A stretch of 64,000 nt of DNA from positions 434,001-498,000 of the forward strand of contig JAUHXS010000002.1 of the NCBI GenBank assembly GCA_030426955.1, written 5' to 3'. Positions 35,856 through 36,616 of the stretch are shown piece by piece. The position numbers and the translations under genes were made by a program. The notes below the pieces were generated by a model. It had not been told where the DNA came from. It searched no databases and saw only the letters and a list, made by a program, of their open reading frames with translations. Each line of letters begins with the position of its first letter. The first letter of the stretch is position 1. This stretch comes from Bacteroidia bacterium (lineage in GTDB: Bacteria > Bacteroidota > Bacteroidia > Chitinophagales > JAUHXS01).

Positions 35856-35869
35856 AGTGACCTCACAGG
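35856..35869 (-). repeat. 14-bp tRNA-Arg 3'-end fragment
   Basis: AGTGACCTCACAGG matches the 3' end and flank of tRNA-Arg at 36006-36019 exactly. It lies in the 5' leader of the His-rich gene and looks like a remnant of a second tRNA copy. Confidence 0.55.
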
Positions 35870-35914
35870 ATTATTTCATGATCCGTATCTACTCCAAGGT
35901 CAAAATCAATCTGC

Positions 35915-35931
35915 AAATTGCTTTACAATTT
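35915..35931. promoter_or_regulatory. Palindrome AAATTG-N5-CAATTT in the leader of the His-rich gene
   Basis: A perfect 6-bp inverted repeat with a 5-bp spacer, about 20 bp downstream of the -7 box. Candidate second operator or RNA hairpin. Confidence 0.4.
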
Positions 35932-35933
35932 AT

Positions 35934-35950
35934 TTTGTGAATGTCACAAA
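35934..35950. promoter_or_regulatory. Palindromic operator candidate TTTGTGA-N3-TCACAAA
   Basis: A perfect 7-bp inverted repeat with a 3-bp spacer that overlaps the -7 box of the His-rich gene. A protein bound here would block the promoter. The sequence is not a classical Fur box, so the regulator is unknown. Confidence 0.5.
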
Positions 35951-35954
35951 TATA
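35947..35954 (-). promoter_or_regulatory. -7 promoter box for the His-rich gene/lipoprotein/TonB operon
   Basis: TATATTTG (minus strand) fits TAnnTTTG and leaves a leader of about 95 nt. Confidence 0.5.
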
Positions 35955-36007
35955 TAAGCAGGCTTATTATTTGCTCCCTCACAAAATTGGCATCTTGATT
36001 CTCATAG

Positions 36008-36081
36008 TGACCTCACAGGGATTCGAACCCCGAACCTCCGCATCCGTAGTGCGGTGCTCTATCCAGTTAAGCTATGAGGCC
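36008..36081 (-). tRNA. tRNA-Arg (anticodon ACG)
   Basis: A 74-nt cloverleaf. The acceptor stem is GGCCTCA / TGAGGTC with discriminator A. The anticodon stem CCGCA / TGCGG encloses CTACGGA with anticodon ACG, read as ICG after editing. The T-arm has GTTCGAATC. CCA is not encoded. The GIY-YIG ORF upstream overlaps the first 15 nt. No promoter lies directly before it; the nearest -7 box is at 36393-36400, ahead of the partial tRNA copy. Confidence 0.96.
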
Positions 36082-36321
36082 ATTTTTGTTAATAATATTA
36101 TGCAAATATGCTCTTCCTGCTCCACTTTTCAAATATTTTTCTCTATTTCTTGCTTCTTGAGTTGTCTCGTACTGTTCTTTGTAAATTAGCTTCCAAGGTC
36201 TAAACCCTTTTGTAGACTTTGTTTTTCCAGAGTTGTGTTGTTTTAATCTTTCATAAGGGTTACGAGAAATCCCTTTGTATAATCTACCATCTTGTAAGCT
36301 TTGTATAACGTAAACGAACAT
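36067..36321 (-). CDS. GIY-YIG nuclease-domain ORF overlapping tRNA-Arg
   Basis: A single GIY-YIG domain of 84 residues, of the stand-alone UPF0213/URI-like type. YVIQSLQDGRLYKGISRN contains the modified GIY (VIQ) and YIG-like (YKG) elements, followed by RLKQHNSG and KLIYKEQ. The catalytic Arg region and the conserved Glu (EARNREKYLKSG) are seen. Its last codons, GLIA and the stop, are the first 15 nt of tRNA-Arg. It lies between a partial tRNA 5' copy and the intact tRNA. Nuclease activity is expected from the family but the target is unknown. Confidence 0.82.
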   Translation of the reverse strand: MFVYVIQSLQDGRLYKGISRNPYERLKQHNSGKTKSTKGFRPWKLIYKEQYETTQEARNREKYLKSGAGRAYLHNIINKNGLIA

Positions 36322-36331
36322 TTTTGTTGTA

Positions 36332-36381
36332 GGTGCTCCCTGCCTCGCCGGCAGGCAGGTATCCAGTTATGCTACGAGGCC
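36332..36381 (-). repeat. Partial tRNA 5' copy interrupted by a 21-bp palindrome
   Basis: Minus strand: 22 nt (36381-36360) match the tRNA-Arg 5' end with two differences (GGCCTCGTAGCATAACTGG then ATA). Then comes a 21-bp palindrome (36359-36339), then GAGCACC (36338-36332), which continues the tRNA D-stem. The palindrome sits at the D-loop/D-stem border. The copy follows a -7 box directly, where the tRNA would be expected to start. Confidence 0.75.
36339..36359. repeat. 21-bp GC-rich palindrome in the partial tRNA-Arg copy
   Basis: CCTGCCTCGCC...GGCAGGCAGG on plus; it differs by one base from the palindrome at 24827-24847. Confidence 0.75.
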
Positions 36382-36392
36382 AAAGAACATTG

Positions 36393-36400
36393 CAAAGATA
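36393..36400 (-). promoter_or_regulatory. -7 promoter box upstream of the partial tRNA-Arg copy
   Basis: TATCTTTG (minus) matches TAnnTTTG. Transcription would begin just before the partial copy and continue through the GIY-YIG ORF into the intact tRNA. Confidence 0.55.
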
Positions 36401-36484
36401 AATATTTAGAATGAAACTAAGTTGATTGAATAATTGTTTCTATGTACAGTTTAAGTATTTTTACTAAACTATTATAAGCTTCAT

Positions 36485-36559
36485 TGTCATTTTGAACGGA
36501 GTGAAAAATCTACCTTAGTCATAAAATAAAGTTGGATTTCTCCTAACGTCGAAATGACA
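36485..36559. repeat. GTCAT-ended inverted repeat (TGTCATTTTGA type)
   Basis: Arms TGTCATTTTGAAC...AAAATC and GGATTT...GTCGAAATGACA form a long imperfect hairpin. It is a dispersed intergenic type of the same design as 24625-24690. It lies 57 bp before the thioredoxin-like gene. The rest of 36401-36616 shows no ORF. Confidence 0.6.
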
Positions 36560-36616
36560 TCGTTTGAGAATATTTTAATCTTGCAGCATTGAATGAGTTT
36601 ATTTAAAATAAATACT

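Follow-up and report, generated by a model that had tools for sequence, protein, structure and literature searches.

Mobile endonuclease genes next to tRNA genes have been described in phages. SegB of the T-even phages is a free-standing GIY-YIG homing endonuclease that is encoded beside tRNA genes and cuts within them. It drives tandem amplification of a unit of tRNA and segB and prefers the motif RAWTSGAAC. The 3' end of segB has microhomology to the 5' end of the tRNA, and the tRNAs in the segB neighbourhood are reported to show no isotype preference (PMC13096335). Homing in tRNA genes is plausible because of this precedent. From fungal mitochondria, mobile endonuclease ORFs are known that replace the 3' ends of genes (atp6 in Allomyces; atp6, atp9, cox2 and nad3 in Glomus; atp9 in Rhizopus). 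The ORF (of the GIY-YIG type in Glomus atp9) brings along a C-terminal part that substitutes for that of the host gene, the hybrid gene is expressed and the native end is displaced behind the ORF (PMC3630166). Small stand-alone GIY-YIG domains make up the UPF0213/YhbQ-like proteins and Slx1. Dispersed mobile palindromes are represented by REP-like sequences, the Rickettsia palindromic elements and the double-hairpin elements of fungal mitochondria.

We describe here a family of short GIY-YIG ORFs, recognized at a tRNA-Arg gene within a window of 64,000 nucleotides (the whole stretch of DNA that was analysed, from a Bacteroidia genome). Each family member is likely a free-standing homing element that is dedicated to one tRNA isotype and rebuilds the gene it enters, although cleavage and repair-driven spread are inferred. 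The likeness to SegB extends to sequence: the reverse complement of RAWTSGAAC, GTTCSAWTY, is the T-loop sequence that hairpins break in our loci (GTTC/GAAT, the stroke marking the break), a correspondence drawn by us. However, SegB is phage-borne and extends C-terminally past its nuclease domain, whereas the proteins described here are chromosomal, about 80 aa long and of a single domain. They are also isotype-bound and rebuild the invaded tRNA, while the relevant sections of the SegB paper contain no replaced half, displaced half or hairpin (PMC13096335). The window protein (84 aa, one domain, chromosomal) presumably works like SegB but is not a SegB, and homology beyond the GIY-YIG fold is not established. 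With the fungal ORFs the family shares the replacement of a gene end, here in bacterial tRNA genes. The fungal cases, in contrast, concern protein-coding mitochondrial genes and 3' ends only, and no tRNA target, mirror-image 5' class or loop-specific hairpin is reported there (PMC3630166). UPF0213/YhbQ-like proteins and Slx1 are the best sequence and fold matches, but the proteins behind the UPF0213 structures are uncharacterised and Slx1 acts with Slx4 on branched DNA. The palindromes resemble REP-like sequences in being short, GC-rich and located between genes; here the same palindrome also breaks displaced tRNA halves, and the difference is a strong concentration in displaced-half loops beside the nuclease ORF. 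The parts are known, but the combination of a bacterial chromosomal, isotype-specific and gene-rebuilding element with a hairpin-broken displaced half appears to be new. No published description of the bacterial family was found in the open-access full text searched, which does not cover subscription papers and preprints.

The tRNA-Arg locus of the window

The initial annotation of the window had described a -7 box, 29 nt of a partial tRNA-Arg split by a 21-bp palindrome, a GIY-YIG ORF and an intact tRNA-Arg, and this layout held to the base (Table 1). On the minus strand, the box TATCTTTG is followed by tRNA nt 1-22, the palindrome CCTGCCTGCCGGCGAGGCAGG, nt 23-29, the ORF and the intact tRNA, and the palindrome sits at the exact D-loop/D-stem border of the displaced half. 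That the ORF stops inside the tRNA is likewise correct for the window, where nt 1-15 of the tRNA are the last five ORF codons GGC CTC ATA GCT TAA (G L I A stop); such an overlap is common but not essential, being found in 20 of the 41 loci of the same orientation. The further claim that ORF and tRNA must share a transcript was too strong. Co-transcription is plausible at the window locus because ORF and tRNA overlap and no TAnnTTTG box is seen other than the upstream one. It is only inferred, however, and not general, given that such a box lies between ORF and tRNA in 4/41 loci of this orientation. Within 45 nt before the displaced copy, TAnnTTTG boxes are present in 7/41 of these loci compared to 2.5% of random 45-nt windows.

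Table 1. Coordinates of the features at the window locus and of the ORF-less element copies.
Feature	Position	Strand	Evidence or remark
TAnnTTTG-type box TATCTTTG	36393..36400	minus	matches Bacteroidota -7 box; just upstream of displaced tRNA 5' half; promoter function inferred
Displaced tRNA-Arg 5' half, nt 1-22	36360..36381	minus	two mismatches to intact gene; alignment score 41 vs 99% null 32.5
21-nt near-perfect palindrome / hairpin CCTGCCTGCCGGCGAGGCAGG	36339..36359	minus	splits displaced half between D loop and 3' strand of D stem
Displaced tRNA-Arg nt 23-29 (GAGCACC)	36332..36338	minus	sequence and alignment
84-aa stand-alone GIY-YIG nuclease ORF	36067..36321	minus	Pfam PF01541, E 1.2e-16; last 15 nt including stop overlap tRNA gene; nuclease activity inferred
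Intact tRNA-Arg(ACG)	36007..36081	minus	tRNA call; Rfam RF00005, 63.4 bits
ORF-less element, ~135 nt (GAATCAAG...TTGATTTTGACCTTGG...GGATCA)	35870..36006	minus	3' side of tRNA-Arg(ACG)
14-nt tRNA 3'-end copy CCTGTGAGGTCACT	35856..35869	minus	closes ORF-less element
ORF-less element copies	window 35856-36006; L002:1803-1960; L003:1270-1421; L279 near 1428-1610	minus (window)	L003 decayed

The ORF product is a single GIY-YIG domain, modelled by AlphaFold2 with a pLDDT of 93.4. Its membership in the GIY-YIG nuclease superfamily is shown by PF01541, the conserved residues and the AlphaFold2 fold matches, whereas nuclease activity is inferred. Seven residues (Y4, Y15, G17, R25, H29, E61 and K65) are invariant among 69 relatives, and the nearest structures are UPF0213 proteins (PDB 1ywl, 1zg2), Slx1 and the catalytic domain of I-TevI. 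The family proteins carry no added DNA-binding domain, and NCBIfam holds no family matching the ORF. An intact tRNA beside the ORF is the trait of a free-standing element, and Rfam shows no intron family here: a search for a group I intron or other known RNA around the window ORF gave only tRNA near threshold. By analogy with filled and empty alleles at other loci, the intact tRNA-Arg(ACG) of the window is inferred to be a rebuilt gene whose 5' part would have been brought by the element. No empty allele of this locus exists in the genome set because its family has only a single genome there, and the history of the window locus is therefore inferred by analogy. RNA folding of the displaced half of the window gives an unremarkable stability (z -0.78).

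The same tRNA-Arg(ACG) has elements on both sides, the GIY-YIG element and an ORF-less element that is separate from the GIY-YIG finding and has only the tRNA locus in common with it. This ~135-nt sequence lies behind three tRNA-Arg genes of the window genome, the copies being ~72% alike, and partly behind a tRNA-Ser. Each copy ends with a 14-18-nt copy of the 3' end of its own tRNA (TAATCC...).

Linkage to tRNA genes, displaced halves and hairpins

Genome-wide counts were obtained from sequence searches of the genome collection. The genome of the window (3.41 Mb) encodes relatives of the ORF in 11 places, ten of them at a tRNA gene (three Arg, three Met, two Ser, one Phe and one Val), and 10 of its 35 tRNA genes (29%) thus have an element. 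By our arithmetic the chance of finding 10/11 relatives at one of 35 tRNA genes is ~1e-25. Nearly all of these tRNA-linked loci have a partial tRNA copy across the ORF that is broken by a palindrome of varying sequence; the Phe and Val loci are mirrored, with the intact tRNA, the ORF and then a broken 3' half. The family occurs in 96/150 genomes of the order and 87/198 of the phylum, and also on named contigs of CPR, Lentisphaerae and Omnitrophota. A tRNA adjoins 16 of the 17 named loci, including those of CPR and Omnitrophota. A search of plasmids gave no matches and a search of phages only two weak ones, and no vector was identified.

For comparison, 200 non-identical relatives were assembled, mostly from Bacteroidota with a few from CPR and other phyla. 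A tRNA lies less than 500 bp away in 155 of them, and in every one of these the ORF is on the strand of the tRNA (155:0). Among relatives less than 300 bp from a tRNA, which is of ~28 anticodon types, the tRNA is upstream of the ORF in 87 and downstream in 47. Most of the other relatives in the 200 are accounted for by tandem-array members beyond the first, by contig ends and by loci that have tRNA remnants; there are also a distant GIY-YIG group (L011, L232-L234) and a separate lineage with inverted repeats. We show that elements can accumulate in tandem at one tRNA, with 8 units in G198, 5 in G308 and 3 in G273. In the arrays L147 (G198:C34:6200-11200), L149, L150, L020, L148 and L151, which have 3-8 units of ~320-370 bp each, a unit comprises a displaced tRNA part with hairpin, a terminator and the ORF, or a hairpin-bearing half and the ORF. 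These units appear to be recombined with one another.

To detect displaced tRNA copies, the sequence across the ORF from each tRNA was aligned with that tRNA, long insertions being permitted, and the null was the 99th percentile of mismatched-isotype controls. A copy above this null is present in 115/134 loci, and its placement obeys a mirror image: a displaced 5' half stands before the ORF and a displaced 3' half after it. Where the tRNA is downstream of the ORF, the displaced copy begins at nt 1 in 40/41 loci and ends near nt 38; where the tRNA is upstream, the copy extends to the 3' end in 67/74. We take this architecture as shown. The initial annotation had suggested looking for GIY-YIG ORFs that end in tRNA genes with an upstream 5' copy; dozens were found, and in addition the mirror-image class. 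It had also held that many relatives at sites without a tRNA copy would refute homing. This was not borne out, the exceptions being array members, contig ends, the distant GIY-YIG group and the separate lineage, whose members lie in protein genes between inverted repeats. In the tRNA class, only 10/134 loci have inverted repeats flanking the ORF that attain the 99% null, and these are mostly duplicated terminators or palindromes; some loci have near-identical terminators on both sides. At L012/L244 (G000:C5:112500-112700) and at L236, a displaced 5' half that contains the palindrome precedes a tRNA-Gly and a tRNA-Arg without any nuclease ORF; both are probably ORF-less relics.

The displaced copies are often broken within their loops. 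Of the 115 copies, 91 (~80%) have an interruption in one or more of the loops they cover and 24 have none, and strong stems are found in 57% of displaced regions versus 5% of background windows. Inserts that fold better than shuffles (p<=0.05) number 71, and in 67 of these no tRNA sequence was lost. The hairpins are loop-specific, with 25 in the D loop (5' halves, window orientation), 20 in the T loop (3' halves, mirror orientation) and 11 in the anticodon loop. Those in the T loop sit mostly at GTTC/GA (GTTC/GAAT), and the D-loop/D-stem site of the window palindrome is interrupted likewise in many loci. A hairpin in the displaced half is hence very common, not obligatory. The perfect palindrome CCTGCCTGCCGGCAGGCAGG is a dispersed repeat in 13/150 genomes of the order, and all 13 have the nuclease family (96/150 overall). 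Such a co-occurrence has a chance of ~0.3% by our arithmetic, which ignores relatedness and copies beside the ORF. The CCTGCCTGCCGGCAGGCAGG copies seen are mostly intergenic and most are not near the nuclease ORF; two lie in ORF-less displaced tRNA halves. At L014:1440-1560, an interspersed repeat (GTCATTTTGAACGAAGTGAAAAATCT...CTAACGTCGAAATGAC) also has the palindrome within its hairpin, and a copy of this repeat without palindrome lies just beyond the element in the window (36480-36560).

The relatives away from tRNAs form a protein group of their own, located between 11-19-bp inverted repeats (e.g. CCCGTGAGATA...TATCTCACGGG; L190, L174, L167, L196, L169, L165, L207, L220, L197, L225, L054 and L231). 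Their sites are tyrosine-integrase genes, a REP-type transposase, epimerase genes (GGAGF/IG, with duplicated 5' end), a four-helix-bundle gene and the RNase P RNA; except for RNase P (Rfam), these targets were named by reading the flanking sequence. That the palindromes are ORF-less (non-autonomous) versions of inverted-repeat-bounded elements is unsupported in the form CCCGTGAGATN{0,30}ATCTCACGGG, for which five genomes gave no matches; ORF-less copies of the exact pattern CCCGTGAGAT..ATCTCACGGG are absent from five genomes.

Filled and empty alleles and the isotype tree

Presence and absence at the exact same site can be compared in three genera, the window locus not being among these cases. 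At tRNA-Leu(CAG), G109 has a filled allele, and congeners such as G121 have an empty one. In the empty allele of G121 the native flank ttttcaattagctaatt... directly follows the tRNA, while in G109 the intact tRNA-Leu(CAG) is followed by a different terminator, the ORF, a displaced half with a 34-nt hairpin and only then by the native flank ttttcaattagctaatt of G121. At the tRNA-Arg(TCG) locus, G176 and G398 are filled and ~50 other congeners match at the same flank. Of these, ten were inspected by sequence and have no element between flank and tRNA, one (L255) having a short remnant. In G176, the end of the upstream gene (flank) leads into tRNA nt 1-22 and, past a hairpin, nt 23-35; the ORF comes next and then the intact tRNA. 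A third locus, at tRNA-Arg(ACG), is filled in G080 and G018 and has empty relatives within the same genus. A replacement end on one side of the ORF and the displaced native end with its native flank on the other are seen in L055/L136 for the 3' end and in L253/L262 for the 5' end. The native flank remains with the displaced half in both orientations, and therefore the ORF-side half of the intact gene came with the element. The hybrid layout of the filled alleles is thus shown. The proposal of a homing-type endonuclease that carries a replacement 5' half, made for the window locus, is supported by these comparative data, namely by congeners in which the locus is empty and the tRNA gene uninterrupted, and by the native flank standing with the displaced half in filled sites; cleavage of tRNA gene DNA is not shown. 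In L255 (G370:C310), a tRNA-like piece GGCTCCGTAGTTCAA...TTGAACTACAGAACC forms an inverted repeat upstream of the otherwise empty tRNA-Arg(TCG), possibly the scar of a lost element. In L143 (G097:C4:91400-93600), at the tRNA-Leu(CAG) locus, the ORF is reduced to its first codons and the displaced half persists with a 33-nt hairpin, an element caught decaying.

The protein is under purifying selection. Among six Arenibacter orthologues dN/dS is 0.03-0.12, with one copy having an internal stop; the G176/G398 pair and one L149 unit were left out as being out of frame. The product is therefore maintained, or was until recently. On a tree of 128 proteins the tRNA isotype changes 34 times, compared to 85+-2 for shuffled labels. 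In a reduced set the isotype clusters (31 vs 59 shuffled), but the host family does not (66 vs 69.5+-1.8). For 98/128 proteins, the closest relative in a different host family is of the same isotype (14% at random), the insertion side is only weakly conserved, and at loci without a callable tRNA the isotype of the nearest relatives fits the adjacent tRNA debris. Lineages therefore follow the target, and neither host nor side. This isotype specificity is shown; that the lineages have spread across hosts is likely, as inferred from a tree of short proteins.

The homing model and rival explanations

In the model that we favour, the nuclease would cut an uninvaded tRNA gene of one isotype, and repair from a filled allele would install the ORF together with a replacement tRNA half. 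The tRNA gene would become a hybrid of the element's half and the resident half, and the resident's own other half would be displaced across the ORF, keeping its native flank. At the window locus, the element would have supplied the 5' half, and the resident one (nt 1-29) would be the displaced copy upstream. The displaced half would then be broken in a loop, as in ~80% of loci, mostly by a hairpin. The purpose of the hairpin is inferred: once broken, the displaced half may no longer be cut or recombine to delete the element. Repeated cutting and unequal repair at one locus may give rise to the tandem arrays. The main weakness of this model is that, around the hairpin site, the intact tRNA of several filled loci does not differ from the empty allele and so should be cut too. 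It might escape if the recognised site includes the native flank or if the enzyme is restrained. It also speaks against homing that the isotype specificity of an 80-aa protein without DNA-binding domain is unexplained. Furthermore, the near-identical terminators on both sides at some loci fit a long target duplication at insertion as well. The 24 displaced copies with uninterrupted loops, the lack of an identified vector, the internal stop in one Arenibacter copy and the want of an empty allele for the window locus weigh on the same side.

A bolder version of homing is a self-marking system, in which each lineage would read one isotype, cut at GTTC/GAAT in the T loop or at the 3' border of the D loop, and block the same site in the displaced half by a mobile hairpin, which that enzyme itself might insert in the course of repair. 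We offer this version with reserve, as less likely than not. If true, it would be a self-cutting defence not described for homing elements and would link homing in tRNA genes to the dispersed palindromes of Bacteroidota.

The most serious competitor to homing, in our view unlikely, is a transposon-like insertion by a structure-specific (Slx1-like) nuclease acting on the hairpin or cloverleaf of tRNA gene DNA. Such an enzyme would create a long target duplication of one tRNA half and also move palindromes into loops, with no need for a donor allele or gene conversion. In its favour, Slx1, which is structure-specific, is among the closest solved relatives, hairpins enter the loops of all three arms and the same terminator flanks both sides at some loci. 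The ORF-less element at three tRNA-Arg genes bears each gene's own 3' end, the sister lineage lies between inverted repeats in protein genes, and 13/13 genomes of the order with the perfect palindrome also have the nuclease family. However, strict isotype fidelity across host families is expected of homing and not of a transposon that reads structure only, and the element-side terminator at tRNA-Leu(CAG) differs from the native one, suggesting an imported half. The absence of ORF-less copies of the exact CCCGTGAGAT..ATCTCACGGG pattern in five genomes and the location of most dispersed palindromes away from the ORF also argue against it.

A host function is less probable still. The protein could act on its linked tRNA in quality control, processing or regulation, the linkage being kept by co-regulation of ORF and tRNA. 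Strong purifying selection and isotype-specific lineages would suit this view, as would the constant strand and the overlap of ORF and tRNA in 20/41 loci. It is nevertheless very unlikely in the light of the patchy presence among congeners at the same locus, the tandem arrays, the displaced half at nearly every locus and the action of known members of the GIY-YIG fold on DNA. That tRNA genes are mere recombination hot spots that caught an ordinary chromosomal GIY-YIG gene, the partial copies being debris, can be all but excluded. The 3' ends of tRNA genes are classical integration sites, and other GIY-YIG proteins do exist away from tRNAs (L011, L232-L234), but the 155:0 strand bias, the isotype fidelity, the half-specific placement and the loop-exact hairpins, 67/71 without loss of tRNA sequence, contradict this view, and there is no integrase gene within the ~300-bp insertion. 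An integrative element that uses tRNA sites by means of a tyrosine integrase and att duplication was rejected, the ~300-bp insertion holding the GIY-YIG ORF only.

If homing by gene rebuilding is true, many ORFs that are annotated as 'GIY-YIG nuclease' and end in tRNA genes would, like many 'partial tRNAs' of these phyla, be parts of one mobile unit, which is a warning for annotation. There would also be a testable reason for the GC-rich palindromes at these loci. The family would further offer a natural set of isotype-specific 80-aa nucleases for studying target recognition by a protein of this small size. The family is present in roughly half of the Bacteroidota genomes sampled, and in the window bacterium ~29% of the tRNA genes (10/35) would have been invaded by selfish nuclease genes. 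Here, a selfish element would reside in an essential RNA gene with no need of a self-splicing intron, since it rebuilds that gene upon entry.
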